DNA from: Bryobacteraceae bacterium
Lineage (GTDB): Bacteria > Acidobacteriota > Terriglobia > Bryobacterales > Bryobacteraceae
NCBI GenBank assembly: GCA_025056455.1
Contig: JANWVY010000007.1
Span: 124,001-188,000 of the forward strand
DNA length: 64,000 nucleotides
Direction of reading: 5' to 3'
Position numbers and translations under genes: made by a program. Positions 17,022 to 32,912 of the stretch are shown here, piece after piece; positions within the stretch are counted from its first letter, which is position 1, and each line of letters opens with the position of its first letter. Under the pieces are notes generated by a model that was not told where the DNA came from, did not search any database, and saw only the letters and a list, made by a program, of their open reading frames with translations.

Positions 17022-17972
17022 ATGAGCAAGCGAGTTTCTATTGGATCTTGGGCCTATACCATTGGTCCCTACGCCTCGAATCCCATCGATTTCGAAACGG
17101 TTTGCCTAAGGCTGAAAAGCCTGGGCTTTGACGGCGTCGAGTTGGGCGCCTTCCCACCACACCCCAACCCGGGCAATCCCAACGGGTCAAATGATTCCTG
17201 GCCCGGTGCTCTGACGGAGAAATCGCAGCGCGAGGAATTGCGCGCCAAGATGCGGGAGTGGGGACTGGCCTTTAGCGGCATCGCCGCCAATCTCTGGGGC
17301 GAGAAGCTCATCAATACCGACGACCAGTCCAAATACATCGCCGAATTCAAGAAGAATTCAGAATTCGCAAAGGATCTGGACATCAAAGGGGTTCGAGTGG
17401 ACTGCGTGCAGCCCCCCACCATCTTGCGCGAAGTGGACTACCGAACGGCGATGGACCGCGTCGTCAAGACCTGGCAAGTGTGTTGCGACATCGCTGCTGA
17501 CAACGGGCAGTATGTTACCTGGGAGTTCGAACCTGGCTTTGCTTTCAATAAACCTTCCGACATCTTACGGATTCATGATGCGGTAAACCGCGCCAACTTC
17601 GGGCTGCTCTATGACACCTGTCACGGCCAGATGGTGGGTGTAGTAGGAGCGCGGCAGGAAGGTGAAAAGGAGACCTTCGCCTCACAAACCGAGCTAATTC
17701 ATAAGCTCTCGGGACGCATCAATCACATCCACCTCATCGACTCTGACAACACTTGCCACAAGGATGCCAGCGGTCAGGATGAAACCTCATCGCATCCGCC
17801 ATTCGGAGAAGGCGTGTTGAATTTCCACGTCCTCATCCCGGAGCTGCTCAAAGCCGCGAATGTCAGCCATGACTGGTGGACCATCGATCTCTGTTTTTGG
17901 CCAGATGCCTGGGCTGCTACGGAGAAATGCAAGAACACGGTGGACCAGCTGGTGGCTCGCTACGGGAACTGA
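17022..17972 (+). CDS. Sugar phosphate isomerase/epimerase (xylose isomerase-like TIM barrel)
   Basis: 316 residues with AP-endonuclease-2/xylose-isomerase-like TIM-barrel features: [18 protein letters not shown] near the N-terminus, [31 protein letters not shown] and [12 protein letters not shown], supplying the Glu/Asp/His metal ligands. Substrate is unknown. It sits 23 nt before a Gfo/Idh/MocA oxidoreductase, a common pairing in cyclitol or oxidised-sugar catabolism. The ribosome site is GGAAAGG. Confidence 0.85.
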
Positions 17973-17995
17973 CCGGGGCAGGAGGAGGATCACGA

Positions 17996-19159
17996 ATGAA
18001 AGAACTTCGGGTTGGCATGATTGGATACGGGTTCATGGGGCGGGCCCACTCAAACGCCTACAAGCGGCTGACCGATTTCTTCCCCGTTCAACACCGTCCG
18101 GTGCTCAAAGCGGTTTGTGCGCGTAATGCGCAAAAGGCAAAAGCGTTCGCCGATACATGGGGTTATGAGCGAGTAGAAACCGACTGGCGGCGAGTGGTGG
18201 AGGCCCCCGACATCGACCTTATCGATATCGGTTCCCCCAATAACACGCACCGCGACATTGCCGTCGCAGCGGCCAAAAACGGCAAGATGGTGGTGTGTGA
18301 AAAACCACTAGCGATGAACGTGGCCGAAGCCGAAGAGATGACTCGCGCCGTGGAAGAGGCCGGGGTGCCAAACATGGTTTGGTTCAACTACCGCCGTGTA
18401 CCCGCGATTGCGCTGGCCAAACAGCTCGTCGAAGAAGGGCGAATTGGCAAACCTTTTCACTACCGAGCCACTTACTTGCAGGATTGGACCATCTCCGAGG
18501 ATGTTCCACAGGGCGGGGCGGCGCTGTGGCGCTTGGATGCGGATGTCGCCGGCAGCGGCGTCACCGGAGATTTGCTGGCGCACTCGATCGACACGGCCAT
18601 GTGGCTCAACGGCCCGATCGTTGAGGTGGTGGCTAAGACAGAAACCTTCGTCAAAGAGAGACTGCATCAGGTGACCGGCCAGCGCGCCCCGGTGCGGATT
18701 GACGATGCCTGCATGTTCTTGGCCGTGTTTGCAAATGGCTCGATGGGAACGTTTGAATCGACCCGCTATGCGCGCGGGCGCAAGAACTTTAATACCTTTG
18801 AGCTCAACGGCGCCGATGGCAGCGTGTATTTCGACCTGGAAGAGCCCGAGTATCTGCAATTTTTTGAATACAAGCAACTTCAATCGGGCAAGAAGGTCGA
18901 AAGCCATCTCACCGGTTGGCGCAAGATCCACACCACAAACTCCGAGCACCCCTACATGAATCGCTACTGGGTACCCGGCACTTGTATCGGCTACGAACAC
19001 ACATTTCTCAATGCCCTGGCGGATTTCGTTATGGGGATCGAATCCGGCAAACCCACCCAGCCAGACTTCCGCAATGCGCTCCAAACCCAAAAGGTCTGTG
19101 ACGCGGTGCTCGAGAGCGCGAATACGGGCAAGTGGGTGAAAACCGGCGTTACCCTGTAG
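17996..19159 (+). CDS. Gfo/Idh/MocA family NAD(P)-dependent oxidoreductase
   Basis: 387 residues. The start at 17996 is supported by AGGAGGAGG just upstream. The N-terminal Rossmann motif is [16 protein letters not shown]. The family EKP motif is [15 protein letters not shown], followed by WFNYRRVPA and the C-terminal alpha/beta substrate domain ([14 protein letters not shown], with the catalytic-region His). No twin-arginine signal, so cytoplasmic. It is probably co-transcribed with the upstream TIM-barrel gene and acts on the same unknown sugar or cyclitol. A strong terminator follows at 19247. Confidence 0.9.
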
Positions 19160-19246: not shown

Positions 19247-19271
19247 CGCTCCCGGGAGGGAGTGCTTTTTT
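19247..19271 (+). terminator. Intrinsic terminator
   Basis: 7-bp stem CGCTCCC/GGGAGTG (one G-T pair) with a GGGA loop, followed by C and six T. It closes the epimerase/oxidoreductase transcript and isolates the rnf operon that follows. Confidence 0.85.
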
Positions 19272-19505: not shown

Positions 19506-20393
19506 GTGGCTGATTTGGTCCTTGCGAGCGCAATCATGGGAGCCTTGGGTGTCACCCTAGGGGGCATCCTAGCGGTTGCCTATCGCAGGCTTTATGTTTT
19601 CGAAGATCCGCGTATCGATCAAGTCGAGGCCATGCTGCCCAACGCGAATTGCGGGGCTTGCGGTTCTCCGGGTTGCCGCGCGTTTGCCGAGAAAGTTGTT
19701 AAGGGCGAGGTAGAGCCCGCTCGGTGCACCGTGAGCACCAGGGCCGCTATCGTTCAGATTGCGAATTATCTCGGCGTGAGTGCAGGCTCGCAGGAAAAAC
19801 GTGTGGCGCGGTTGGCCTGCGCGGGAGGAGCAAACGTAGCGCTGAATCACGCGCGATACACGGGATGGCAGACCTGCCGCGGCGCCGCGTTAGTGGCCGG
19901 GGGCGGCAAAGCGTGTAGCTGGGGCTGCCTGGGTTTTGGGGACTGCGCGCGGGTTTGCCAGTTCGACGCCATTCGCATGAATGAACACTTGCTGCCTGTG
20001 GTAGACGAGGCCAAGTGTACGGCTTGTGGCGATTGTGTTGAAATCTGTCCCAAACAGCTTTTTTCCATACACCCGGTGAGTCACCGCTTGTGGGTGGCTT
20101 GCCGGAATCTGTTACATGGCGAGGCGGCGGAGGCAGTTTGTGAAGTTGCGTGTACAGCCTGTGGCCGCTGCGCCGCCGACGCTCCGCCTGGTCTGATCCA
20201 AATCGTCCATAACCTGGCGGTGGTCGATTATTCCCGGAATTCTCTCGCCAGCCGGGCGCCAATTGAGCGATGTCCAACCGGAGCCATTGTTTGGTTCGAC
20301 GAACATCAAGGACCTGTCAAAGGCGCCGAGGCGAAAAAGATTACCCGAAAATCTGCCCTCCCTGTCGCCGTGGCAGATTTTCCGAGAAACTAG
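19506..20393 (+). CDS. rnfB: Rnf complex ferredoxin subunit RnfB
   Basis: 295 residues from the GTG at 19506, which has AGGAG 8 nt upstream. One N-terminal transmembrane helix (about 3-26) is followed by the RnfB Fe-S motif LPNANCGACGSPGCRAFAEK. Ferredoxin-type motifs come next: CSWGCLGFGDCARVCQ, CTACGDCVEICPK and CTACGRC. The last pair is degenerate: Cys IV of the CTACGRC motif is Ala (CAADAP) and the final motif keeps only ERCPTGAI. One cluster therefore seems lost from the C-terminal ferredoxin while the other can still form. Role: membrane-anchored entry point for ferredoxin electrons into Rnf. First gene of the operon. Confidence 0.9.
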   Translation: MADLVLASAIMGALGVTLGGILAVAYRRLYVFEDPRIDQVEAMLPNANCGACGSPGCRAFAEKVVKGEVEPARCTVSTRAAIVQIANYLGVSAGSQEKRVARLACAGGANVALNHARYTGWQTCRGAALVAGGGKACSWGCLGFGDCARVCQFDAIRMNEHLLPVVDEAKCTACGDCVEICPKQLFSIHPVSHRLWVACRNLLHGEAAEAVCEVACTACGRCAADAPPGLIQIVHNLAVVDYSRNSLASRAPIERCPTGAIVWFDEHQGPVKGAEAKKITRKSALPVAVADFPRN

Positions 20394-20427
20394 AGCGCAA
20401 ACAGAGGCCAACAGCGAGGCGCAAAGC

Positions 20428-23400
20428 ATGAGTACAAAACGCACGTTCCCTTATCCAGGAATCCGTTCCGCAATGGACGGCAATACGGCCGTCATTATGT
20501 GCGAGCGCGAAGCCACGGACGGCGCAGGGGCCTATCCCATCACCCCTTCGACGCAAATGGGCGAGTATTGGGCTGAGGCCACGGCTGCGGGTCATGTCAA
20601 CATTTCTGGAAGACCGCTCATCTTTATTGAGCCTGAGGGTGAACATGCAGCCGCGGCTGTCACGGCGGGTCTTGCCATGACCGGGTTGCGCGCCGCTAAC
20701 TTTTCTTCCGGTCAGGGCATCGCCTATATGCACGAATCCTTGTATGCGGCGGTCGGAAAGCGGCTGACCTATGTGCTGAACATGGGATGTCGCGCCATTA
20801 CCAAGGCGACGCTCAATGTGCACGCTGGCCACGATGACTACCACTGTGTGGACGACACGGGCTTCTTTCAACTCATGGCCAAAAGCGCCCAAGAGGCGGC
20901 TGATCTCAACCTGATCGCGCACCGGATCGCCGAGCTCGCCTTGACGCCAGGCATCTGCGGGCAGGACGGGTTTCTGACCACGCACTTGATCGAGTCGCTC
21001 ATGCTGCCAGAAAGGGATTTAATTGCAGAGTATCTCGGGCGGCCCGACGACATCATTGAAACGCCAACTCCTGCTCAGCGATTACTGTTTGGCCCTCGCC
21101 GCCGGCGCATCCCCGAGTTGTGGACGGTTGACAATCCGGTGATGCTTGGTGTCGTCCAGAATCAGGACGCCTACATGCAGAGCGTGGCAGCGCAGCGGCC
21201 ATTTTTCTTTGACCATGTGGCCGAGCTCGCCGACCGCGCCATGGCCGAATACTACGAGCTCACGGGCCGGCAGTATCGCCGTGTGTCCACCTATCGAACG
21301 GAGGACGCTGACTATCTCATCGTGGGGATGGGCAGCATGATTGTGACAGCCGAGGCGGTGGCCGACTATCTCCGTGAAACCCGGAAGCTCAAAGTTGGCG
21401 TCGTCAACATGACCATGTTCCGGCCCTTTCCTGGCGACTTAGTCACCGAGATTCTCCGAGGCCGCAAAGGAGTCGCCGTGCTCGAACGTACGGACCAGCC
21501 GCTGGCCGAGGATCTGCCGCTCATCCGGGAGATCCGTGCTGCGCTCGGTCGCGCTCTTGAAAATGGCCGGGCAAGCCAGGGAAAACTCCCTTACCCTGAT
21601 CACGCCGTCTACAAGCACCTAGATGAGATACCACCTCTTTATTCCGGCTGTTACGGTCTCGGCAGCCGCGACCTTCAACCTGAAGGCCTGATTGGGGCAG
21701 TTGAAAACATGCTGCCCGGTGGCCACCAACGCCGCTTTTTCTACCTTTCCGTTGACTTTGCTCATGACAAGCCCTTCACACCGAAGCAGGAAATTCACCA
21801 AATTGCCGTGACCGACGCTTACCCCAAGGTTAAGGAGCTGGCCATCCGCGGCTCGGAAAATCCCAACCTCATGCCGAAGAACAGCATCACTGTTCGCTTC
21901 CACTCCGTAGGCGGATGGGGCGCCATTACCACAGGCAAGAACCTCGCCATGACGTTATTTGATCTCTTGGGTTATCACATCAAGGCGAACCCCAAGTATG
22001 GCTCGGAGAAGAAAGGTCAGCCGACAACCTACTATCTTTCTGCAGCCCCGGAGCCGATCCGCGTCAACTGCGACTACTTTTATGTCGACGTCGTTTTGTC
22101 GCCCGATCCAAACGTCTTCAAGCACTCAAACCCACTGGCGGGTCTGAAAAATGGCGGCGTGTTCATTCTGCAAAGCTCGTTTGAAGACCCGCAAGAAGTG
22201 TGGGCGCAGATTCCTGAACGTTTCCAGCGAATGATTTTGGAAAACAACATCCGGGTGTACTATCTCGACGCCTTTAAGATCGCACGCCAAGAAGCAACCG
22301 ACCCGGACTTGCAATTTCGCATGCAGGGGATTGCCTTTCAGGGAGCGTTCTTCGCCGTTTCCGGCGTAATGGCCCTGGCCAATCTCACCGAGGAAAAGCT
22401 GTTTGACGCGATTGAATCCCAGTTGAAGAGCAAATTTGGCGCCAAGGGCGCTCGCGTGGTGGCCGACAACATGCGGGTCGTCCGTCGGGGTTTTGATGAA
22501 GTCAAAGAGATCAAGGAGAAGAAGCTGACAGCGCCGGCAAGCTCAACCTTGCGGCGAGCACCTGACCTGCCCGTCCTGCTCAAAGCGCTGCCGGCCGCTG
22601 CCACTCCAACTACTGATATCCACCGTTTCTGGGAGCAAACGGGGCATTTCTACCTCACGGGCAAAGGGAATGATAACCTGGTCGATCCCTTCATCGGCCT
22701 GAGCTGGATTCCTGCGCTCACCGGCGTTTTTCGCGACATGACAAGCATTCGCTTTGAGCATCCCGTCTGGATTCCCGAAAACTGTACGGCCTGCGGCTCC
22801 TGCTATACGGTGTGTCCAGATAGTGCGATTCCCGGCTTGGTGCATGCCCCTTTGACGGTGCTCGAAACTGCGATGAAGCAAGCTCAAAAAGCGGGCCATG
22901 AGGTCCGTTTGCTGCCCCGCGCCATCCGGCTGGTCGACCAGAAACTGCGCATCCGCATTTCCGCCGCGGGAGAGAAGGCGGATGTTCGGCGGTTGATCGA
23001 CGATGCGATTGGAGATGTCTTGCTCGGTTACGCCCCAGAGTCAGACGATCGCAAACAACTAGAACAGGAATTTCAGTGGCTGCGCGAACAGCTGGGCGAT
23101 TTCAAATTCTCAGTGACGCAGCCTTACTGGATTTCGCGAGAGAAAAAACAAAAGAACTCGGGCGGATTGTTGTCCATCACGGTGAATCCTTATGCCTGTA
23201 AAGGTTGTATGGAATGCGTCAAGGTGTGCAACGACGACGCTTTACGGCCCGTGCCGCAGACCGCCGAGTCGGTAGAGAAGCTGCGTAAGGATTGGGATTT
23301 TTGGATGGCGCTGCCCACCACCGCCCCAGAATTCATCCGCATTGAGAATCTCGACGAGAAGATCGGCGCGCTCGAGACCTTGTTATTGGACAAAAACAAT

Positions 23401-25353
23401 TACATGTCTCTGGTATGCGGCGATGGCGCTTGCCTGGGCTGCGGCGAGAAAACCGTCGTACATCTTTTCACCGCAACTGTCGAAGCGCTGATGCAACCGA
23501 GGGTAGCCAAGCACGTTCGCAAGATTGAAGATTTGATTCAGCGCCTGGACCAGCACATCCGGCTTAAACTCGCTTCGACCATGGATCTGAGCGATACGGA
23601 ACGCATCTCACACGCGCTCGATGAGTTGCGCGATGCGGACGTCACCTTGGCCACTTTCTCCGAAAAGTTGGATGAGCGCGGCGCGGGTAAGACGATCGAT
23701 GCGGAGTGGCTGCGCTGGGCCACTCAACTGCTTGCCAAACTGCGGCACCTAAAGTGGCAATACACCGAAGGCGCAAGTCGCCGGGGGCGGGCCAGTATGG
23801 GGATGATCAACGCCACAGGCTGTACTTCGGTGTGGGCCTCTACCTATCCCTTCAACCCGTACCCGTTCCCCTGGGCCAACCATCTTTTCCAGGATTCCCC
23901 TTCCATGGCCATGGGCGTCTTTGAAGGCCACATGGTGAAGATGGCCGAAGGCTTCAAAGCGATCCGCATGGCCGAAATCGAACTGAATGAAGGATACAAG
24001 AAGGAAAAGCACGAGGAGTTCTTCACTTACTTCAACTGGCGACACTTTTCCGACGAGGAATACCTGCTATGTCCGCCTGTTGTGGCAGTAGGCGGGGACG
24101 GCGCCATGTATGACATCGGTTTCCAGAATTTGTCCCGTCTGATGATGTCTGGAAAGCCGATCAAGGTGTTGATCCTTGACACTCAGGTGTACTCCAACAC
24201 TGGCGGCCAGGCCTGCACCTCAGGCTTTGCGGGTCAGATCTCCGACATGGCCCAGTATGGCAAGGCCTTCCAGGGCAAGGAGGAAATCCGGAAAGAGATT
24301 GCCTTAGTGGGCATGGCGCACCGCACCAGCTACATTCTGCAAGGCAGCATTTCCCACCCTACACACTTGATCGAAGGTTTTATTGACGGGTTGAATGCGC
24401 GCCGTCCGGCTATTTTCAACGTCTACTCGGCCTGCATGCCCGAGCACGGCATCGGAGACGATGTCGCAGAGCATCAAAGCAAGCTCGCCGTTGAGTCTCG
24501 CGCCTATCCTTTAATCCGCTACAACCCAGACAAAGGCATCACACCGGAGGAGTGTTTCGATCTCGAGGGCAACCCATCGATCGAGACCGACTGGCCCACC
24601 TACACACTGCACTATACCGACGAACAAGGCTTCAAGGCACAGATGGAACTGCCCTTGACCTTCGCCGATTTCGCTGTTACCGAAGCCCGCTTCCGCAAGC
24701 ATTTCCGGACGGCACCGCGCGATACCTGGAACGAAAACATGGTGCCTCTGGCGGATTATTTGAACCTCGAGGCCAGTGAGCGAGAAGGAAAGTTCCCCTT
24801 CATCTGGGCAGTCGATAAGAAAAATCGCCTGATTCGGGTGATCCCCTCGCAGAGCCTGGTACGCTCCTGCGAAGACCGGCGCAACTTCTGGCGCATGCTG
24901 AAAGCCCTTGCTGGCGTACGGCCCAAGGTCAACCCTGAGGAAATCGCACAGCGCGTCAGGCTGGAATTCGCGCAAACGCTCGCCTCGCGCCTGCTCGAGA
25001 TTGCAACCGATGGCAACACCGATCTGTCTGCGCCGGCGGCGCCGCTAACCCTTCTGGCCCCAGCGCCCGAAACGGCCCAGCGAGAGCCGGCGCTTGAGGA
25101 CGGCTACGTTGCGCCCTGGATTGACTCCGCCAACTGCACCTCCTGCGACGAATGCATCCAGATCAATCCCAAAATCTTTGCCTATGACGAGAACAAGCGC
25201 GCCTACATTAAAGACCCCAAAGGAGGACCTTATCGAGATTTGGTCCGCGCCGCCGAAAAGTGCACAGCGCAGGTGATTCATCCCGGTACACCGTTTGATC
25301 GCAACGAAAAGGATGTGGACAAGCTTCTGAAACGCGCTCAGAAGTATCTGTGA
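20428..25353 (+). CDS. nifJ: Giant pyruvate (2-oxoacid):ferredoxin oxidoreductase, single-chain
   Basis: 1641 residues against about 1170-1200 for usual NifJ. Order: pyrimidine-binding domain (AYPITPSTQMGEYW near residue 32); domain II (about 290-400); gamma domain (about 490-720, FHSVGGWGAITTGKN); Fe-S motifs CTACGSCYTVCP (about 786) and CKGCMECVKVC (about 925); TPP domain (GACLGCGEK about 1000, ATGCTSVWAS about 1130, GDGAMYDIGFQN about 1225); and a C-terminal CTSCDEC...KCTA single-cluster domain (about 1568-1641). Long helical inserts separate the two Fe-S motifs and split the TPP domain. Role: CoA-dependent oxidation of pyruvate or another 2-oxoacid, or the reverse, with ferredoxin. Substrate is not proven. 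It lies between rnfB and rnfC. The ATG at 20428 is chosen because upstream frame overlaps rnfB. Confidence 0.88.
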   Translation: MSTKRTFPYPGIRSAMDGNTAVIMCEREATDGAGAYPITPSTQMGEYWAEATAAGHVNISGRPLIFIEPEGEHAAAAVTAGLAMTGLRAANFSSGQGIAYMHESLYAAVGKRLTYVLNMGCRAITKATLNVHAGHDDYHCVDDTGFFQLMAKSAQEAADLNLIAHRIAELALTPGICGQDGFLTTHLIESLMLPERDLIAEYLGRPDDIIETPTPAQRLLFGPRRRRIPELWTVDNPVMLGVVQNQDAYMQSVAAQRPFFFDHVAELADRAMAEYYELTGRQYRRVSTYRTEDADYLIVGMGSMIVTAEAVADYLRETRKLKVGVVNMTMFRPFPGDLVTEILRGRKGVAVLERTDQPLAEDLPLIREIRAALGRALENGRASQGKLPYPDHAVYKHLDEIPPLYSGCYGLGSRDLQPEGLIGAVENMLPGGHQRRFFYLSVDFAHDKPFTPKQEIHQIAVTDAYPKVKELAIRGSENPNLMPKNSITVRFHSVGGWGAITTGKNLAMTLFDLLGYHIKANPKYGSEKKGQPTTYYLSAAPEPIRVNCDYFYVDVVLSPDPNVFKHSNPLAGLKNGGVFILQSSFEDPQEVWAQIPERFQRMILENNIRVYYLDAFKIARQEATDPDLQFRMQGIAFQGAFFAVSGVMALANLTEEKLFDAIESQLKSKFGAKGARVVADNMRVVRRGFDEVKEIKEKKLTAPASSTLRRAPDLPVLLKALPAAATPTTDIHRFWEQTGHFYLTGKGNDNLVDPFIGLSWIPALTGVFRDMTSIRFEHPVWIPENCTACGSCYTVCPDSAIPGLVHAPLTVLETAMKQAQKAGHEVRLLPRAIRLVDQKLRIRISAAGEKADVRRLIDDAIGDVLLGYAPESDDRKQLEQEFQWLREQLGDFKFSVTQPYWISREKKQKNSGGLLSITVNPYACKGCMECVKVCNDDALRPVPQTAESVEKLRKDWDFWMALPTTAPEFIRIENLDEKIGALETLLLDKNNYMSLVCGDGACLGCGEKTVVHLFTATVEALMQPRVAKHVRKIEDLIQRLDQHIRLKLASTMDLSDTERISHALDELRDADVTLATFSEKLDERGAGKTIDAEWLRWATQLLAKLRHLKWQYTEGASRRGRASMGMINATGCTSVWASTYPFNPYPFPWANHLFQDSPSMAMGVFEGHMVKMAEGFKAIRMAEIELNEGYKKEKHEEFFTYFNWRHFSDEEYLLCPPVVAVGGDGAMYDIGFQNLSRLMMSGKPIKVLILDTQVYSNTGGQACTSGFAGQISDMAQYGKAFQGKEEIRKEIALVGMAHRTSYILQGSISHPTHLIEGFIDGLNARRPAIFNVYSACMPEHGIGDDVAEHQSKLAVESRAYPLIRYNPDKGITPEECFDLEGNPSIETDWPTYTLHYTDEQGFKAQMELPLTFADFAVTEARFRKHFRTAPRDTWNENMVPLADYLNLEASEREGKFPFIWAVDKKNRLIRVIPSQSLVRSCEDRRNFWRMLKALAGVRPKVNPEEIAQRVRLEFAQTLASRLLEIATDGNTDLSAPAAPLTLLAPAPETAQREPALEDGYVAPWIDSANCTSCDECIQINPKIFAYDENKRAYIKDPKGGPYRDLVRAAEKCTAQVIHPGTPFDRNEKDVDKLLKRAQKYL

Positions 25354-25363
25354 GGGATCGAGC

Positions 25364-26722
25364 ATGAAGCTGTTTGGTTGGTTTGGGGACAAGGCGCTTC
25401 ACCGGGGAGTGCATGTTCCAGAATGCAAGGAGCAAACCGCGCACTTGCCTATTCGTCGCATGAACTTTCCCCCAGTCGTGATCGTGCCAATGTCCCAACA
25501 TGCTGGGACACCGGCCATTCCGATCGTCAAAGAAGGGCAAGAAGTCGTGCGGGGCGAGCCGATTGCCAGGCCCGACGGCTTCGTTTCGGTGCCGATGCAT
25601 GCGCCCGTGACGGGCAAGGTGGAGCGCATCGCTCTGGCTCCCAGCGCGCGGGGCGACCTCTCTTTGGCGATTTACATCCGGCCTTACCCTGCGGCAAGCC
25701 AGGAAGTGCTCTACGGAGAGCCTCAAAACATCGACCAAATGTCGCCGGAAGAAATTGTCCGGGCCGTTCAAGAAACGGGTGTTGTTGGACTGGGAGGTGC
25801 CGCTTTTCCCACGCACGTAAAGATGAAGCTGCCCGAGGGCAGGACCGTGGACACTGTGGTCGTCAATGGCTGTGAGTGCGAGCCCTACCTGACGACAGAC
25901 CATCGCGTCATGGTGGAACAGCCGCGAGCCGTGATCCATGGAACGCGCATTGCGATGAAGGCCCTGGGAGCTCCCCGGGCCATCATCGGTGTGGAAGACA
26001 ACAAACCGGACGCCATCCAGGCTCTGCGCGATGCTCTGGCAGCCGAAAGTGCGATTACTGTCGAGGCCGTACCCACGAAATACCCGCAAGGCGCCGAGAA
26101 AATGCTGATTGAAGTATTGCTAGGTCGCGAGGTTCCTTCCGGCGGTTTGCCCAGCGAAGTTGGCGTGGCGGTTTTTAACGTCGCCACCTTGGCCCAGATT
26201 GGTGACCTGCTACCCAGGCGGCAAGGGCTGATCGAACGCGTGATCACGATTGCTGGAACGGCCGTCCGCAAACCCGGGAACTATCTCACCGTGCTTGGTA
26301 CGCCCATTCGGTGGGCACTCGAACAAGCTGGTGCAACCGAACAAGCCGCCTCGGTGATTCTTGGAGGACCGATGATGGGACCCACCATCAGCTCGCTCGA
26401 CGTGCCAATCACGAAGGGCGTAACAGGCATTCTCGTCATGGCCCGGGACAGCTTCAACAGTCGGCATACCATTTTTCCGTGCATCCGGTGCGGGGCCTGC
26501 GTGGAAGTCTGCCCCTTACACTTGAACCCTTCCCGCTTGGGCATGCTGGCCCGGAAAGGCCGCTATGAAGAGATGGAAAGCGACTTTCATCTGATGGATT
26601 GCTTTGAGTGTGGCTGTTGTAGTTACGTTTGCCCGTCGCACATTCCGCTCGTGCAGTATTTCCGTGTAGCGAAGCAGATGAACCGGGAGAGGAAGGCCCG
26701 CCATGCCGCCGCTAGCGCCTGA
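25364..26722 (+). CDS. rnfC: Rnf complex NADH-binding subunit RnfC
   Basis: 452 residues. The N-terminal biotinyl-like region has KEGQEVVRGEPIARPDGFVS. The flavin/NADH-binding core has GVVGLGGAAFPTHVKM and VVNGCECEPYLTTDHR. Two ferredoxin motifs near the C-terminus are CIRCGACVEVCP and CFECGCCSYVCP, which carry two [4Fe-4S] clusters. Role: peripheral subunit exchanging electrons with NAD(H). It begins 10 nt after the oxidoreductase gene and overlaps rnfD by 20 nt. Confidence 0.96.
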   Translation: MKLFGWFGDKALHRGVHVPECKEQTAHLPIRRMNFPPVVIVPMSQHAGTPAIPIVKEGQEVVRGEPIARPDGFVSVPMHAPVTGKVERIALAPSARGDLSLAIYIRPYPAASQEVLYGEPQNIDQMSPEEIVRAVQETGVVGLGGAAFPTHVKMKLPEGRTVDTVVVNGCECEPYLTTDHRVMVEQPRAVIHGTRIAMKALGAPRAIIGVEDNKPDAIQALRDALAAESAITVEAVPTKYPQGAEKMLIEVLLGREVPSGGLPSEVGVAVFNVATLAQIGDLLPRRQGLIERVITIAGTAVRKPGNYLTVLGTPIRWALEQAGATEQAASVILGGPMMGPTISSLDVPITKGVTGILVMARDSFNSRHTIFPCIRCGACVEVCPLHLNPSRLGMLARKGRYEEMESDFHLMDCFECGCCSYVCPSHIPLVQYFRVAKQMNRERKARHAAASA

Positions 26723-27758
26723 AATCGAATTGAGAACATCGCCTCATTTCCACTCCAACCGTAGCGTGGAGATGATCATGCGCAACGTCGTCTATGCGTT
26801 GCTGCCGCTGTGTGCCTTTTCTGTGTGGAATTTTGGTCTCAGCGCCCTGGCGCTGATCCTCGTGTCGGTGCTTTCCTGCCTGGTCACGGAGCATCTGTTT
26901 TGTTGGCTCTCGCGCCGCAAATCCTCGCTGGGCGACTGGAGCGTCACGATTACGGGTATCCTGCTCGCTCTGACGTTGCCACCTGGATTCCCTTTGTGGA
27001 TGGTCGCCGTCGGCGGGTTTGTATCGGTCGGTTTAGGGAAAATGGCGTTCGGAGGGCTAGGCTTTAATGTGTTCAACCCGGCGCTCGTGGGTCGGGCGTT
27101 TTTACAGGCCTGTTTTCCTACGGCAATCACGGCCTATTCTCCCGCCTTAGCCAAAAACCGCTTTACGGAATTTATTCCCACCACCTTCACACCTCCTTTT
27201 CTCCAGCCGCCTCCACTGGCCGATTGGATCGAGCGAGTACGCGTGGATGCTTTCTCTGGCGCCACTCCGCTCATGCAACAAAAATTCGACAAGGTAACGG
27301 CGGATTGGCAACCGCTGTTTTTCGGCACCGTATCGGGCTCGGCTGGCGAAACGCCTGCCCTGCTTATTCTTTTGTGCGGGGCTTATCTGGCAGCACGAAA
27401 TTTTATGGACTGGCGCATTGCTTTCTCCATGCTGGCCAGCGCCTTTGTTAGCGGGGCGGCGTTTCACTTTCTGAATCCGGCCGTTTATCCCCATCCTTGG
27501 TTTGTGTTGCTTTCTGGCGGATTGATGTTGGGAGCTGTTTTTATGGCCACCGACATGGTGGCCTCACCGGTGACTCCGACGGGCGTGTGGATCTACGGCG
27601 CGCTCATGGGCCTGATCACGGTCGTGATCCGCAATCTGGGCGGCTTGCCCGAAGGCGTGATGTACGCCATCCTGCTCGGCAATGCCGTCTCGCCGCTCAT
27701 TGACAACCTGACCCAACCCCGCGTTTACGGAGTCCACCCGCGAAGGAGAACGGCATGA
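26703..27758 (+). CDS. rnfD: Rnf complex membrane subunit RnfD
   Basis: 351 residues with about 8-10 transmembrane segments. VDAFSGATPL contains the SGAT motif whose Thr (near residue 187) carries covalent FMN in RnfD/NqrB. Other RnfD blocks are GLGFNVFNPALVGRAFL and FMATDMVASPVTPTG. Role: ion-translocating membrane subunit. It overlaps rnfC by 20 nt and rnfG by 4 nt. The ApbE flavin transferase needed for FMN attachment is not in the window. Confidence 0.95.
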   Translation: MPPLAPEIELRTSPHFHSNRSVEMIMRNVVYALLPLCAFSVWNFGLSALALILVSVLSCLVTEHLFCWLSRRKSSLGDWSVTITGILLALTLPPGFPLWMVAVGGFVSVGLGKMAFGGLGFNVFNPALVGRAFLQACFPTAITAYSPALAKNRFTEFIPTTFTPPFLQPPPLADWIERVRVDAFSGATPLMQQKFDKVTADWQPLFFGTVSGSAGETPALLILLCGAYLAARNFMDWRIAFSMLASAFVSGAAFHFLNPAVYPHPWFVLLSGGLMLGAVFMATDMVASPVTPTGVWIYGALMGLITVVIRNLGGLPEGVMYAILLGNAVSPLIDNLTQPRVYGVHPRRRTA

Positions 27759-28420
27759 ATTCCCAAGCCCCATCTCGGCCCCCACTTTCTACGGCAGACG
27801 GCATCAAAATGGTGCGGCTGCTAGGGACCGTGTCGTTTGTTTGCGGGCTTTTGATCGTCATCACGCATCGCGGAACGCTCTCCGCCATCGGCCGCAACCA
27901 GGAACGTTTGACACGCGAGGCGGTGGCCGAGCTTTTGCCGGGCATGCAACGCCAAGTCGTCTACTCCGTTCACGGTGGCGAGCTGTCGAAGGGAGAAGGC
28001 TCAGACCGACTGGCAGGAAAGATCTACGCCGGCTACGACGCCTCGGGCAAGCTACTTGGCTTAGTGATGGAGGCCAGCGAGCGTGGTTATGCCGACATGA
28101 TTAAGGCCATGTACGCCTATTCTCCCTCGAAACGGTGCATTACTGGTTTTAAAGTCCTGGAAATGAAAGAAACACCCGGCCTAGGTGACAAGATTGCCAC
28201 CGACAAGAATTTTCTTGAGAATTTCAAACAGCTCGTTTACGATCCGGATCACCCCATCGTGGCGGTGAAGGCTGGCGCAAAAAAGAACAATTGGGAGATT
28301 GACGCAATTTCGGGAGCGACGATTTCTTCCCGCGCGGTCGGGCGCATGCTAAACCGTAGCATCCGGGAAATGGCGCCCCTCATTGAACGAAATCTCCGCC
28401 GGATTGAGAAAGGAGAATGA
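27755..28420 (+). CDS. rnfG: Rnf complex FMN-binding subunit RnfG
   Basis: 221 residues. One N-terminal membrane helix (about 22-42) is followed by a periplasmic FMN-binding domain with EMKETPGLGDKI and IDAISGATISSRAV, the SGAT flavinylation motif (Thr near residue 188). Role: covalent-FMN electron carrier of Rnf on the outer side of the membrane. The ATG overlaps the rnfD stop (ATGA). Confidence 0.95.
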   Translation: MNSQAPSRPPLSTADGIKMVRLLGTVSFVCGLLIVITHRGTLSAIGRNQERLTREAVAELLPGMQRQVVYSVHGGELSKGEGSDRLAGKIYAGYDASGKLLGLVMEASERGYADMIKAMYAYSPSKRCITGFKVLEMKETPGLGDKIATDKNFLENFKQLVYDPDHPIVAVKAGAKKNNWEIDAISGATISSRAVGRMLNRSIREMAPLIERNLRRIEKGE

Positions 28421-28421
28421 T

Positions 28422-29081
28422 ATGACTGGCGCGCACCTCGTCCAGGCGCCTTCTCCCTCCGAAAATTACGAGACCTTTTTCAATGGTCTCTGGAAGCAGA
28501 ATCCAGTGTTTGTGCAAGTTCTGGGAATGTGCCCCACGCTGGCCGTGACCAACAGCGTACGGAACGCCCTGGCCATGGGGGCGGCCACTTTGTTTGTGCT
28601 CGTTTGCTCCAATATGCTGATTTCTCTGGTTCGCAAGCGCGTGCCCAAACAAGTGCGAATTGCCACCTACATTCTCATCATCGCCACCTTTGTGACCATT
28701 GTCGATTACTTGATTAAGGCCCTCAGCATCGCTGTCTACAAGGCGCTCGGGCCATTCATCGCGCTCATTGTCGTCAACTGCATGATCCTTGGACGGGCCG
28801 AAGCATTCGCCAGCCGCAATCCGCCGGGGAAAGCCATTCTTGACGGACTCGGTATGGGCCTTGGCTTTTCCTTTGCCTTGCTGTGTTTGGGCGCGGTACG
28901 CGAAGTTCTGGGTGCGGGAACATTCTTAGGGGTTCCTCTCTTTGGGCCTCGTTTCCAGCCTTGGGTGTTGTTTCTATTGCCTCCTGGAGGCTTTCTGACG
29001 CTGGCGTTGTGGCTGCTGGTTTTTCGCGCTTGGCAGAGCCGGAAGGAGCGGAAACAAGAGCAATGGAGGGCGGCGGCATGA
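28422..29081 (+). CDS. rnfE: Rnf complex membrane subunit RnfE
   Basis: 219 residues from the ATG at 28422, which has AAGGAGAA upstream and starts right after rnfG. There are about six transmembrane helices. VLGMCPTLAVTNS and LIVVNCMILGRAEAFA supply the two conserved Cys that, with two from RnfA, hold the intramembrane iron centre. Role: membrane electron transfer and ion transport. The stop overlaps the rnfA start (ATGA). Confidence 0.95.
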   Translation: MTGAHLVQAPSPSENYETFFNGLWKQNPVFVQVLGMCPTLAVTNSVRNALAMGAATLFVLVCSNMLISLVRKRVPKQVRIATYILIIATFVTIVDYLIKALSIAVYKALGPFIALIVVNCMILGRAEAFASRNPPGKAILDGLGMGLGFSFALLCLGAVREVLGAGTFLGVPLFGPRFQPWVLFLLPPGGFLTLALWLLVFRAWQSRKERKQEQWRAAA

Positions 29082-29665
29082 ACAATCAATCGCTGGGACA
29101 CATCTTTATCGACGCGCTCCTGATTAATAACTTCGTGTTGAGCGTTTTTTTAGGCATCTGTCCCTTTATTGGCGTATCGGCGAAACTCGCTACGGCCTGG
29201 CGGATGGGCGTGGCTGTTATCTTCGTCACCTTGGTGAGCAGCTTGTTGGCCTATGGTACGAATGCTCTGCTGGTCGTCTTAAACGCCGAGTATCTACGCA
29301 TCATCAGTTTCATAGTGATCATTGCGTCCACGGTTCAACTGGTGGAAATGTTTATTAAGAAAACCAGCCCCGCGTTATTCCGCGCCCTCGGCATTTATCT
29401 GCCCTTGATCACGACCAACTGCGCGGTCCTGGGCGTGGCGCTCTTTCAAACGTCGCGCCAGTATGACTTCGCCCAAAGCGTCGTGTTTGCGGCCGGAGCA
29501 AGTTTTGGTTTCACGATCGCGCTGGTCCTCATGGCGGTGATCCGCGAAAAACTTGAGCTGTCGGACATCCCCGATACGGTTCGCGGTACTGCTCTCGTGC
29601 TGCTGCTGGCCGGCATACTTTCACTTGCCTTTATGGGGTTTTCTGGGATGGGAGTAGAAAGCTGA
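29078..29665 (+). CDS. rnfA: Rnf complex membrane subunit RnfA
   Basis: 195 residues, six transmembrane helices, inverted homologue of RnfE. FLGICPFIGVSAKL and LITTNCAVLGVAL carry the two conserved Cys of the RnfA/RnfE iron site. GGAGG sits about 9 nt before the ATG. It is followed without any gap by the small Cys-rich gene at 29666. Confidence 0.95.
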   Translation: MNNQSLGHIFIDALLINNFVLSVFLGICPFIGVSAKLATAWRMGVAVIFVTLVSSLLAYGTNALLVVLNAEYLRIISFIVIIASTVQLVEMFIKKTSPALFRALGIYLPLITTNCAVLGVALFQTSRQYDFAQSVVFAAGASFGFTIALVLMAVIREKLELSDIPDTVRGTALVLLLAGILSLAFMGFSGMGVES

Positions 29666-29896
29666 ATGGCTCGCGACTTGCTTCTAGCGGTAATCGGGAT
29701 TTTTATCTTCATGGCTTTCTGGCTGGCGGTACAGTCTGCATTTCGCAGGCAAATGGCAAAGCCTTCCGATGTGGACGTGTTGGAACCGTGGGCTCACGGC
29801 TGTGGCGGATGCAGTGAGACGGCTTGCGCAAGACAGCCAGCGGCCTGCCGCCGCGGCGACTACTGGTTGGATGACAAGGCGAGGGTGAACGTATGA
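29666..29896 (+). CDS. Small Cys-rich membrane protein, NqrM-like (candidate Rnf maturation factor)
   Basis: 76 residues: one N-terminal transmembrane helix (about 5-24), a short linker, then four Cys at residues 46, 49, 54 and 61 (HGCGGCSETACARQPAAC). This layout of a single helix followed by CGG...C...C resembles NqrM (DUF539), which matures the iron site between NqrD and NqrE. RnfA and RnfE are homologous to those subunits. Homology is not proven: similarity is in topology, size and Cys pattern only. It begins 1 nt after the rnfA stop and overlaps the reductase gene by 4 nt, so it is a real operon member. Alternative: an unrelated small zinc or Fe-S protein. Confidence 0.75.
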   Translation: MARDLLLAVIGIFIFMAFWLAVQSAFRRQMAKPSDVDVLEPWAHGCGGCSETACARQPAACRRGDYWLDDKARVNV

Positions 29897-30753
29897 ACTT
29901 GAGCGAATATGACATCAGCAACCCCTATCCGGCGACGCTGATCAAGACCGAGCGCATCACGCCGGAAGATTCAAAAGTCGAAGTCCGCCATTTAGTGCTC
30001 GAATTACCTGAGGGCGACTTCCATTTTGTGGAAGGGCAGAGCATCGGTGTGCTCGCGCCCGGACCGCATGAATTCGGAAACAAACACCACCTCCGTCTTT
30101 ACTCCATAGCTAGTCCGCGCAAAGGAGAAGCCGGCAAGCCGAACACCTTTTCGCTGTGCGTGCGCCGTTGCTTCTACATCGACGAAATCAGCGGAGAGAT
30201 GTATCCGGGAAAGGCTTCAAACTACCTCTGCGACGCAAAGCCTGGTGACGTAGTCCAGATCACAGGTCCCTACGGAGCACACTTTTCCGTGCCGGCTGAC
30301 AGCAAAAGCAACTTACTTATGGTGGGCGTGGGAACTGGCATCGCCCCGTTTCGCGCGTTTGTGCGGCATATCTATGAAGAGCGTGGCGGCTGGGAGGGCC
30401 GGGTGCGCCTGTTCTACGGAGCGAAGACCGGTACGGAGCTCCTGTACATGAACGACAAGGTGAAGGATTTTACGCTCTACTACGATGAGAAGACCTTCAA
30501 AGCCTTCGAAGCCGTGAGTCCGCGGCCAGCCTTTGATTTGCCCCCGGACGTCGACCGGCTCTTGCTCGACAACCGCCAGGAGGTCTGGTCGCTGATCCAA
30601 GATCCCAACACCTATGTCTACGTGGCTGGCCTTCAGGATGTGGCTGAGAAATTCGAAAAGGCGATGATCACTATGGCTGGCAGCGAGGAAGCATGGCGGA
30701 AACTGCGGACCGAATTGGTTGCCCAGGGGCGCTACTCAGAGCTACTTTACTAA
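29893..30753 (+). CDS. Plant/cyanobacterial-type ferredoxin-NADP+ reductase
   Basis: 286 residues. The FAD domain has RLYSIAS near residues 67-73 and the SLCVRR block. The NADP domain begins at VGVGTGIAPFRAF near residues 144-156, then LFYGAKT and YVAGLQD. It ends in a C-terminal Tyr, as in plastid-type reductases. KASNYLCDAKPGDVVQITGP closely resembles cyanobacterial PetH, as I recall it. Role: reversible electron exchange between ferredoxin and NADP(H). As last gene of the rnf operon (4-nt overlap) it would link the ferredoxin pool of Rnf and the 2-oxoacid enzyme to NADPH. Confidence 0.92.
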   Translation: MNLSEYDISNPYPATLIKTERITPEDSKVEVRHLVLELPEGDFHFVEGQSIGVLAPGPHEFGNKHHLRLYSIASPRKGEAGKPNTFSLCVRRCFYIDEISGEMYPGKASNYLCDAKPGDVVQITGPYGAHFSVPADSKSNLLMVGVGTGIAPFRAFVRHIYEERGGWEGRVRLFYGAKTGTELLYMNDKVKDFTLYYDEKTFKAFEAVSPRPAFDLPPDVDRLLLDNRQEVWSLIQDPNTYVYVAGLQDVAEKFEKAMITMAGSEEAWRKLRTELVAQGRYSELLY

Positions 30754-30782
30754 AGGCGCGATTTTACTAAGGGCGCAATTTT
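30749..30782 (+). repeat. 17-bp tandem duplication at the convergent gene junction
   Basis: Two adjacent 17-bp copies (30749-30765 and 30766-30782) that begin ACTAA and end ATTTT differ at only two positions. They span the stop of the reductase gene and touch the stop of the convergent DUF1501-like gene. Probably a small slippage duplication. Confidence 0.7.
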
Positions 30783-32289
30783 AGGCGTGACGCCGCATAG
30801 CGCGCATGTCTGGCAGTTGAGCGCTTCCCAGGTCAATGCCTAAGGCGCGCGCAAGGCCTGCATAAATCTCCGCTTCGGTCATGGTGCGTCCAGGCTCTGG
30901 TTTTCCAGTCTGAGGGTCGAAGCCGTAGGTGAGCAGGGTGTCGGGATCCACCCCGCCCAGCAGCTTACCGCCGTTGGCAAACGGCGAGATGATAAGAGAG
31001 CCGTTGTTGAGATCGTGGCCGGACCCAAAACTTGTGGCTTGTTCCGGACGGCGGCGGGTGCGCCCGAAATCGGTGGCCACGTAAATCATGGTTCGATCCC
31101 AGAAACTTTGTCCCGCCGCAAACTCCTCGCTTTTGAGCAGGGTGATCAGACGGTCTGCAATGCTAAGGATTCGATCCCACATGAGAGCCTGGGTCTCGCG
31201 GTGAGCTTGGTGCGAATAGTCGAAGGCTATGGGCGTATTAATGACTCCGCCTTCGCCGAGCTGGGCGCGCCCCCCGCGGAGCGAGGCGCCTTCCTTGAAC
31301 ACAACGCTACCTTCGGCTCCCAGGGTGACTGTGACGGAAACGCCGTATCGGAGCAAGAGGAAGGCGAGGGCAGCCTGACTCTCGAGCGGGTCCATGTAGT
31401 AGCGCGGGAAAGCGGCTCTCACCTTCTCCCCAAGCTCAGAGCCCCGAAGCCCGCTGGCGGCGAGCGGCATCTTGGGCGAATCGGGGAAAAGCATGAGTTT
31501 CGTGATCAGATCGAGCTTCTCCACGTTCTTGACTGGCTCGTCGCGTAACTCGATCCAGTGCTGAAGGCGCTTACTGGTGCGAAACGTTGCATAGAAGGGA
31601 GACTTAGGATCGAGTGTCTGATTGCGAAAGGCACGCGCTTTTTCAAACAAGCTGCGGCTCGGCGCGCCGGGCACGCCTTGATAGCCATCGAGGGAGAGCG
31701 GCCAGAGATTGGGCGCCGCGACATGTTCGCCGTAAGCCCAGGCGGGAAGCGATTTGTCTGTGCCGCGTTCGGTGAATCCGGTGCCATTCACCAAGTGCAC
31801 GTTCGGAATTGGGTAACCCGCTCCATATTGCAGAGCCACGGCTTCTTGCAGCGTTCTCCCGCGCCACGCCGCATTTCCGGTCACCGCGCGGTGTTCAGCG
31901 ACGCGGTGGTTTACGCTGGTGCCCGTGTGCGTGAACACCATCATGTCACGGGCATGCTTTTTGACGAAATTTGACTGATTGGCTTGAAAAGAAGCCGGAA
32001 TTAGGCCAATCCGCTCGGCGCGTAAATCAATGGCGCGAAACTCCGCCCCTGGGACATTTTGCACCAAGCGATCCGGATAGGTATTGAGCGCGGCGGCATT
32101 CTTCGATTCGGACTCGCGAACAGCAAGGAAGGAATCAACGATCGAGGCTCCACCTGTCGCGCAAAGTACAATCAGAAACCGGGGAACTGGTTTCTCCTCA
32201 GCTGCCCGAACCAGGGGCGCTTTGTGAGCCAGCATGCCTGCACCGGCTGCGGTTTGTAAAAACCGGCGCCGAGACCAACTCCCGAACAT
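30781..32289 (-). CDS. Tat-exported DUF1501-like protein
   Basis: 502 residues from the ATG at 32289, which opens with a twin-arginine signal, SRRRFLQTAAGAGMLA. The mature part has FLIVLCATGGASIVDSF, HTGTSVNHRVAEHRAVTGNA and MIYVATDFGRTRRRPE, an alkaline-phosphatase-superfamily-like arrangement seen in DUF1501 proteins. Assignment to DUF1501 is from memory of family style and is moderately sure. It is the third gene of a minus-strand set after a CxxCH protein and a small exported protein, a combination common in Acidobacteria and Planctomycetes. Substrate unknown. Confidence 0.7.
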   Translation of the reverse strand: MFGSWSRRRFLQTAAGAGMLAHKAPLVRAAEEKPVPRFLIVLCATGGASIVDSFLAVRESESKNAAALNTYPDRLVQNVPGAEFRAIDLRAERIGLIPASFQANQSNFVKKHARDMMVFTHTGTSVNHRVAEHRAVTGNAAWRGRTLQEAVALQYGAGYPIPNVHLVNGTGFTERGTDKSLPAWAYGEHVAAPNLWPLSLDGYQGVPGAPSRSLFEKARAFRNQTLDPKSPFYATFRTSKRLQHWIELRDEPVKNVEKLDLITKLMLFPDSPKMPLAASGLRGSELGEKVRAAFPRYYMDPLESQAALAFLLLRYGVSVTVTLGAEGSVVFKEGASLRGGRAQLGEGGVINTPIAFDYSHQAHRETQALMWDRILSIADRLITLLKSEEFAAGQSFWDRTMIYVATDFGRTRRRPEQATSFGSGHDLNNGSLIISPFANGGKLLGGVDPDTLLTYGFDPQTGKPEPGRTMTEAEIYAGLARALGIDLGSAQLPDMRAMRRHA

Positions 32290-32318
32290 GATCGCTGAGA
32301 CTCCTTTCCCTGCTTGTT

Positions 32319-32912
32319 CTAATAAAAGATGCTTTCCAAAGAAGTGGCGACAGCAAAGCAACCCAGCACAACCCAATCGCGGGCTGCCCGCTCAGCCGGA
32401 GCGCGAAGCTCGGACGCCACGGTTTTATAGAATTCCGTTAGCCGGGAAATTTCCTCGGATGAGGCTGGCCGGCGCAGCAGTTTTTCGTAAAGGAGGGCTG
32501 CGGTTTCGCGCCTCCACCGCGCGTCAAATTTCCTTGCAGGACGCAAGAGCACCGCTTTGTCTGGCTCCTTTTCGTCAGCCGTTACACGCGTAGCGCAGAC
32601 GCGCAAAGCGACACGATCCAGAGCTATGGGCGTTGTCAGAGAGGGCGGAAGCGGCTCAACAATGCGGATGGTGTATGGCTCGACGCCACCGAGCACGATG
32701 CGGAAGGCGTCAAAGTAGCAGTCATACTGGCCGAGTTCTTTGCAGATGGAGTCCCGCGGTATTTCGAGAGCGGCTGCCAGATCACGCAAGTAGCGATCTC
32801 CATCCTTAAATTTCAGACGCGGATCAAGCGAGGGCGTGGCTGGTGGCTGGGCGTTAGCGACGACCGCGACCGCCAAAGCGGCGATCCAACACGCCTTTTT
32901 AAGGTCTCCCAT
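32319..32912 (-). CDS. Exported hypothetical protein
   Basis: 197 residues with a signal peptide ending near residue 21 (VVANAQ). A few Cys (SICKELGQYDCYF) lie in the middle. The C-terminal stretch LLRRPASSEEISRLTEFYKT resembles segments in the DUF1549/DUF1553/DUF1592 group of planctomycete-type proteins, so it may be a companion domain of the adjacent CxxCH protein. It overlaps that gene by 14 nt and lies 29 nt before the DUF1501-like gene. No function can be named. Confidence 0.7.
   Translation of the reverse strand: MGDLKKACWIAALAVAVVANAQPPATPSLDPRLKFKDGDRYLRDLAAALEIPRDSICKELGQYDCYFDAFRIVLGGVEPYTIRIVEPLPPSLTTPIALDRVALRVCATRVTADEKEPDKAVLLRPARKFDARWRRETAALLYEKLLRRPASSEEISRLTEFYKTVASELRAPAERAARDWVVLGCFAVATSLESIFY

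Follow-up and report, generated by a model that had tools for sequence, protein, structure and literature searches.

A widely conserved Rnf operon enclosing a giant, ferredoxin-tailed pyruvate:ferredoxin oxidoreductase in a Bryobacteraceae bacterium

How does a 2-oxoacid oxidoreductase hand its electrons to the Rnf complex when the two are encoded side by side? The usual view is that Rnf takes its electrons from free, pooled ferredoxin. The question is raised by a locus of a soil-dwelling Bryobacteraceae bacterium (Acidobacteriota; assembly GCA_025056455.1), in a stretch of 64,000 nucleotides of contig JANWVY010000007.1 (positions 124,001 to 188,000 of the forward strand), the whole of which we call the window. 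An operon of nine genes on the plus strand, at 19506-30753, encodes all six Rnf subunits (B, C, D, G, E and A) in the order rnfB - giant pyruvate:ferredoxin oxidoreductase (PFOR) - rnfC-D-G-E-A - small cysteine protein - ferredoxin-NADP reductase (FNR). The gaps inside the operon measure 34, 10 and 1 nt, and the remaining junctions abut or overlap. Family models and coordinates confirm the original prediction on this point: nine genes in this order, PFOR between rnfB and rnfC, FNR last and no gap above 34 nt. Searching the 4.98-Mb genome with the window RnfC revealed no second rnfC; two partial matches (36% identity, 87 and 54 residues) are presumably NADH-dehydrogenase subunits.

We lean, modestly, towards reading this operon as a hard-wired 2-oxoacid:NAD(P) redox module in which tethered ferredoxins wire 2-oxoacid oxidoreductases to Rnf. 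The giant PFOR would oxidize pyruvate with CoA, or run in reverse. Its internal [4Fe-4S] clusters would relay single electrons to a C-terminal ferredoxin carried on a flexible linker, and this tethered ferredoxin, not only free ferredoxin, would dock on RnfB. Rnf would pass the electrons to NAD+ while ions cross the membrane. FNR would form a branch through which the same low-potential electrons enter or leave the NADP pool, and KorAB, a predicted oxidoreductase encoded elsewhere in the genome, would be joined to the same system via KorX, a third protein that carries such a tail. The model builds on observed gene order, conservation, catalytic motifs, the tail and its predicted linker, motif losses in KorX, and co-occurrence.

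Breadth and shared history of the cassette

The window PFOR was used to scan 84,980 species genomes, and the loci described here are those of the best 80 of at least 572 confirmed relatives; gene presence was called by BLAST to the window proteins, which may miss divergent copies. The neighborhood search with PFOR and RnfC that had been proposed for this locus shows that the cassette recurs. The start of rnfC lies within 1.6 kb downstream of PFOR in 70/80 loci, 59 of them within 200 nt, and where at least 600 nt of room is available rnfC is beside PFOR in 65 of 66 cases (nine of the ten misses have <600 nt). The end of rnfB lies within 400 nt upstream of PFOR in 61/80, and at 15 of the 19 misses there was room of 900 nt or more; at seven loci rnfB follows FNR instead (L115, L121, L131, L133, L134, L137 and L138). 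Downstream sequence reaches 9.9 kb or more at 36 loci, and in these rnfC, D, E and A occur together in 34 and a post-FNR rnfB in six, while FNR is common and not universal (27/36). Neither rnfB nor rnfC was found at three of the 80 loci (L086, L147 and L151), of which L151 alone has ample flanks.

By the phyla given in their records, the 80 relatives, in the majority metagenome-assembled genomes (MAGs), represent about a dozen phyla. They include Acidobacteriota, Hydrogenedentota, Pseudomonadota, Bacteroidota, Calditrichota, Kiritimatiellota, Verrucomicrobiota, Myxococcota, Planctomycetota, Spirochaetota, SAR324 and Binatia. Within the same genus, nine of 11 genomes have the giant PFOR (one cut by a contig end), and it was not found in G005 (79% complete) or G007 (99% complete). 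The operon order is repeated in same-genus relatives and in G044, from another family; in one genome from another genus of the family, the same order runs from the C-terminal part of PFOR through FNR. Of 297 Acidobacteriota genomes sampled, 34 have RnfC above the cut-off, and the giant PFOR query gave 24 matches at E <= 1e-150. Eighteen are long giants, two are partial (G137 and G236) and four are of ordinary size or smaller (G070, G133, G191 and G324).

Some loci depart from the common layout. L042 and L044 read PFOR-rnfCDGEA-small Cys-FNR, and rnfB was not found on either side within the stretch. At L045/L073 FNR directly follows rnfG; a real deletion or an assembly fault may account for the absence of rnfE, rnfA and the small Cys gene. 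On a Calditrichales contig, the PFOR-linked rnf genes are closely preceded by a second rnf set (L096:322-4900).

To place RnfC we built a quick tree from 53 hand-picked rows: 38 PFOR-linked, six Kor-linked (L250 being so called from its kin, as its upstream region is cut), eight of rnfCDGEAB type, all from Acidobacteriota, and one second copy. Support was calculated only as the Shimodaira-Hasegawa-like approximate likelihood ratio test (SH-aLRT). The 38 PFOR-linked sequences form a single clade (SH-aLRT 99) and the six Kor-linked sequences another (85); both are apart from the eight rnfCDGEAB-type sequences (99), and the PFOR-linked RnfC are nearer to the Kor-linked ones than to that type. Sequences from different phyla mingle in the PFOR-linked clade, suggesting that the cassette has been transferred. 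Pairwise distances correlate at r 0.875 for PFOR and RnfC (53 of 84 loci, those with all six genes) and at 0.83 for PFOR and FNR (40 loci), with 0/2000 permutations as high, in a test that leaves species kinship uncontrolled.

The ferredoxin tail and its occurrence on PFOR relatives

The giant PFOR looks catalytically intact, given that YPITPS, R122, GDG, N1257 and cysteine sets A, B and proximal do not vary across 17 sequences; from the roles of these residues in the Desulfovibrio africanus enzyme, we take them to be the thiamine motifs, the pyruvate Arg and Asn and the ligands of three [4Fe-4S] clusters. It scores 421 bits against the PFOR equivalog model, below the cut-off of 911, and pyruvate is its presumed substrate. 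In sequence, the C-terminal tail resembles ferredoxin I of D. africanus (E 2e-6), and its predicted structure matches 1fxr, the same ferredoxin (Foldseek TMt 0.84, root-mean-square deviation (rmsd) 0.8, E 0.009). The AlphaFold2 (AF2) model covers PFOR residues 442-1641 at a mean predicted local distance difference test score (pLDDT) of 73. It fits solved PFORs poorly overall (TM ~0.4, rmsd ~9-13), so only the linker and tail were interpreted from it. Among relatives the tail is as conserved as the body (68% identity, versus 69% over residues 1-1520), whereas the linker (1521-1560) retains 26%.

Of the 98 Rnf-type giant entries fetched, 95 carry the tail and the other three are cut by contig ends. 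About six of the 95 are repeat fetches, and five come from G164, G216 and G224, in which PFOR is not beside rnfC. Sister giants, 36-38% identical, lack the tail in 19/19 intact cases (one further is cut), and two more sister giants, L199 and L200, are also without it, L200 being split over two frames. Within the Acidobacteriota sample, tailed giants are in RnfC-positive genomes in 6/6 cases and tail-less giants in genomes without complete Rnf in 12/12; in this Fisher table (6/0 versus 0/12) only complete Rnf is scored as Rnf. A partial rnfC-G-D set is present in two of the twelve, and seven intact giants from genus g28, also tail-less, lie outside the table.

Tail-less giant PFORs with open reading frames (ORFs) of 1519-1666 aa occur in Acidobacteriota at L048-L054 and L187-L198, and no rnf genes were found beside L048-L054. 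The partial sets (L247:7955-11034 and L248:4320-7405) are rnfC-G-D-like without rnfE, A or B, in genomes that hold a tail-less giant. Above-cut-off RnfC-like matches in G101 and G312 were rejected as Rnf, being a partial rnfC-G-D set with no E, A or B.

A second tail was identified outside the operon. Elsewhere in the genome (L069:9313-14690, contig C11), genes for KorA and KorB are followed by one for KorX, an 818-aa protein with no NCBIfam family match. KorA is above the TIGR03710 cut-off, and the best match of KorB is TIGR02177 at 223 bits, below the cut-off of 262; KorAB is a predicted 2-oxoacid oxidoreductase, probably for 2-oxoglutarate. KorX aligns to PFOR residues 995-1643 (hhalign probability 100, E 1e-74). 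In 12/12 sequences it has lost the GDG thiamine motif and retained the tail; of the cysteines aligned to the proximal cluster, one is left in our KorX and none in the other eleven. Identity among KorX relatives is 33% in the body and 74% in the tail. By these motifs KorX is predicted to be a catalytically dead PFOR beta fragment with a ferredoxin tail. An AF2 structure of KorX (mean pLDDT 38) was unusable.

KorX also tends to co-occur with Rnf. Across 61 genomes, our own included, it is a separate gene in 10/12 with an Rnf-type giant and in 0/49 others (Fisher p 7e-10); G002 is one of the two exceptions. In the Acidobacteriota sample it occurs in 9/34 RnfC-positive genomes versus 4/263 others (p 6e-7). 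KorA-KorB-KorX adjoins the PFOR-Rnf operon at L078, L080, L082 and L114, KorA-KorB follows it at two Algoriphagus loci, and the L134 stretch breaks off in the first part of a KorX-like ORF. The L114 stretch, from a Myxococcales MAG (L114:6619-17089), reads KorA-KorB-KorX-rnfB-PFOR-rnfC in one run on the same strand.

A second type of Rnf operon in Acidobacteriota has the order KorA-KorB-KorX-rnfB-X-rnfC-D-G-E-A. It was identified in other families (L209, L212, L213, L216 and L287), whole or as far as the contig or stretch extends; eight further Rnf loci have the plain rnfCDGEAB order. Protein X aligns to PFOR residues 70-1532 (probability 100, E 2e-126, 15% identity). All five X sequences keep relay clusters A and B, have lost the thiamine motifs (GDG included) and the proximal cluster, and have no tail, so X appears to be a second dead PFOR, reduced to its relay clusters. 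KorX and X together retain the relay parts of a giant PFOR, with rnfB between them. This layout is our strongest hint that the job retained would be that of passing electrons to RnfB.

The four KorX genomes without above-cut-off RnfC (L283, L284, L285 and L286) all have the order NfnA-like, NfnB-like, KorA, KorB, KorX. Family models underlie the Nfn-like calls in G174 and that of the NfnB-like gene in G165; the others come from BLAST to G174 (72-88% identity). Because KorX stands beside Nfn-like genes here, the tail is not exclusive to Rnf, and it may serve ferredoxin:pyridine-nucleotide enzymes generally, Rnf among them.

Partners, direction and rival explanations

Known Rnf complexes receive electrons at the C-terminal domain of RnfB, which is rich in clusters (PMC12174285). 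In 76 aligned PFOR-linked RnfB sequences (the window included, with some repeat fetches), none of the 20 cysteines varies. In FNR, R68 and Y70 are present in 51/51 sequences, as are G149 and A151-P152-F153, and the terminal Tyr is present in 50/51. We assume for the corresponding motifs (RLYS for FAD, GTGxAPF and the terminal Tyr) the roles that they have in plant-type FNR. At candidate NADP 2'-phosphate positions, S209 is found in 48/51 and R211 in 49/51; position 224 is Leu, where Tyr would be expected from cyanobacterial FNR. Docking on RnfB, electron flow, the use of NADP by FNR and the substrates are the parts of the mechanism that we infer.

The small Cys protein has a look-alike after rnfA in 45/62 loci by a Cys-pattern search, an undercount given that four of the 17 loci missed had a BLAST match. 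It has no Pfam family above cut-off and is a possible cluster-maturation factor. Its identification as NqrM is not supported by the family models: neither the window ORF nor six relatives match PF04400, and the likeness is in layout only. The only PF04400 match in the genome is sub-threshold and lies elsewhere.

Regarding direction, our bet is low-oxygen pyruvate oxidation alongside dehydrogenase-type enzymes, with the reverse possible. Dehydrogenase-type E1 proteins (PF00676) were identified in 61/61 genomes, so the module is probably an addition to such enzymes. With three in our own genome, a role of the module as their sole substitute is not supported.

A reverse mode is an alternative that we rate as somewhat unlikely: an ion gradient would drive electrons from NADH to ferredoxin via Rnf, PFOR and KorAB would carboxylate reductively to make 2-oxoacids, and FNR would feed in electrons from NADPH. 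Tethering is compatible with it. Tubeworm symbionts have Rnf genes in reductive tricarboxylic acid cycle clusters (PMC6315080). The genome studied here keeps its dehydrogenase-type E1 proteins, and a second oxidative route is therefore not required. However, PFOR and Rnf are each reversible, so the sequence cannot settle the direction. The same applies to the original prediction that a single unit links 2-oxoacid chemistry to ferredoxin, to NAD(H) plus an ion gradient and to NADP(H): conserved order and correlated divergence fit such a unit, while neither of the directions proposed for it is settled. NADP might also be the center of the system, if the tail docks on the operon FNR to make PFOR plus FNR a pyruvate:NADP oxidoreductase and Rnf serves as overflow. 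A functional parallel is the fused pyruvate:NADP oxidoreductase of Euglena. FNR closes the window operon and occurs in 27/36 loci with full downstream room, and in the four KorX genomes without above-cut-off RnfC the cluster is preceded by Nfn-like genes, which are probably NADP-linked. Yet FNR was not found in the other nine of these loci, whereas rnfC adjoins PFOR in nearly all loci with room, and we consider an NADP-centered system quite improbable.

It is unlikely, in our judgment, that PFOR, Rnf and FNR simply share cytoplasmic ferredoxin, with co-transcription balancing their amounts and the fused ferredoxin acting as a convenience or oxygen shield with no specific partner. Such a pool would agree with the soluble ferredoxins accepted by RnfB of known complexes (PMC12174285), with the tailed PFOR that is unlinked in three genomes (G164, G216 and G224), and with tailed KorX beside Nfn-like genes where Rnf is missing. 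It does not agree with a tail that is in all intact Rnf-type entries and absent from all 19 intact sister giants, nor with dead PFOR relatives that kept only relay parts and flank rnfB. Service to nitrogenase, with PFOR supplying the electrons, would follow a known role of Rnf in Azotobacter (PMC12174285) and Rhodobacter (PMC3534657); a NifH match in 0/13 genomes searched, our own included, makes it extremely improbable here.

Several observations weigh against the wiring of PFOR to Rnf through tethered ferredoxins. Species kinship could partly explain the correlated divergence of PFOR, RnfC and FNR. The operons of G004 and G006 are without an adjacent rnfB, and that of G002, which also lacks KorX, is without rnfE and rnfA. 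G164, G216 and G224 have Rnf, yet their tailed giant is away from rnfC, and the tailed giant at L151 has no adjoining rnf gene despite room on both sides. KorX occurs in four of the 263 genomes without above-cut-off RnfC (G165, G174, G302 and G288), and no tail was found on the KorX that immediately precedes rnfB at L114.

More broadly, we tentatively propose, at slightly less than even confidence, a family of membrane-wired 2-oxoacid oxidoreductases, in which tethered ferredoxins carry electrons from pyruvate and 2-oxoglutarate enzymes to Rnf (in some genomes to an Nfn-like enzyme) and dead PFORs act as electron adaptors. These would form a modular, ion-pumping alternative to the dehydrogenases for pyruvate and 2-oxoglutarate, passed as a cassette across phyla.

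The locus and its known counterparts

Features of the operon are listed in the table. A pattern scan of terminator-like sites found 17, versus 13.9 in shuffled sequences, and listed no promoter-like site upstream of rnfB, so it neither proves nor rules out a single transcript. Upstream of the operon (17022-19159) are a xylose-isomerase-like TIM barrel gene and a levoglucosan-dehydrogenase-like gene. The three downstream genes (30781-34371, minus strand) resemble DUF1501 and planctomycete-type cytochrome-associated domains weakly, with scores below cut-off.

Table. Features of the PFOR-Rnf operon, with positions in the window.
Feature	Position	Strand	Description
Terminator-like hairpin upstream of rnfB	19247..19264	+	Pattern match only
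rnfB	19506..20393	+	295 aa, GTG start; TIGR01944 above cut-off; Fe-S electron-input subunit, 20 Cys
Giant PFOR	20428..25353	+	1641 aa from ATG; POR_N, POR, PFOR_II, TPP_enzyme_C, Fer4; matches solved PFORs 6cin/1b0p
Disordered linker, PFOR residues 1522-1557	24991..25098	+	AF2 pLDDT <50
Single-[4Fe-4S] ferredoxin tail, PFOR residues ~1562-1622	25111..25293	+	Fer4_13
rnfC	25364..26722	+	TIGR01945, 501 bits vs cut-off 246
rnfD	26703..27758	+	TIGR01946, 300 bits vs cut-off 207
rnfG	27755..28420	+	FMN_bind above cut-off; TIGR01947 94.7 bits, just below cut-off 102
rnfE	28422..29081	+	TIGR01948 and NF009070 above cut-off
rnfA	29078..29665	+	TIGR01943, 238 bits vs cut-off 229
Small Cys protein, 76 aa	29666..29896	+	N-terminal membrane helix (one, by eye), then CGGC...C...C cluster
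FNR, plant/cyanobacterial type	29893..30753	+	Best NCBIfam models PetH and BoxA, both below cut-off; matches solved FNRs

The window shares all six subunits with the Rnf complexes encoded as rnfABCDGE, rnfBCDGEA or rnfCDGEAB. It differs from them in the PFOR between B and C, in the appended FNR and small Cys protein, and in an RnfC clade of its own. Single-chain PFORs of Moorella thermoacetica and D. africanus have the same domain order, thiamine motif and three cluster-binding sets; at 1641 aa, the window enzyme is longer than the solved ones (1171-1232 aa), with extra inserts and the fused ferredoxin-I-like tail. The tail has the sequence type and fold of D. africanus ferredoxin I (1fxr, 1dax) and in the window is tethered to an enzyme. 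Two-subunit KorAB is joined here by a third gene, that of KorX, with its putatively dead PFOR beta fragment and ferredoxin tail.

The arrangement had been thought undescribed, which proved incorrect. A 2014 genome paper on the Solemya velum symbiont already places PFOR genes between rnfB2 and rnfC2, as in the window, and suggests that pyruvate may feed that Rnf (PMC4287430). We liken the rnf2 operon to ours by description only: the account is one sentence and does not mention FNR, the tail, KorX or the distribution. Among the open-licence papers listed, no other report of PFOR between rnfB and rnfC was found. Tubeworm symbiont Hdr-Flx/KorABCD clusters likewise interleave electron complexes with a 2-oxoacid oxidoreductase, but with a four-subunit Kor and a bifurcating partner, unlike the window (PMC6315080), and in tubeworm symbionts korAB and a 'PFOR-like' gene both fall under one condition (PMC11636981). 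No account of the tail, KorX or dead PFORs in Rnf operons was found among the open-licence papers listed, subscription papers being mostly outside the search. The arrangement as such is already in print; the breadth of the cassette, the tethered ferredoxin and the putative dead-PFOR adaptors appear to be new. The module is confirmed, widely conserved and under-described.

The partners are now named and can be tested: the tail, RnfB, KorX and the dead PFOR. If the donors of Rnf are physically tethered, very low-potential electrons from central carbon metabolism could be channelled into an ion gradient, even in cells with dehydrogenase-type enzymes, and dead enzyme copies may have been recruited as electron wires. 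Recurrence of the cassette in many phyla suggests a hard-wired, little-studied link between pyruvate and cellular energy.

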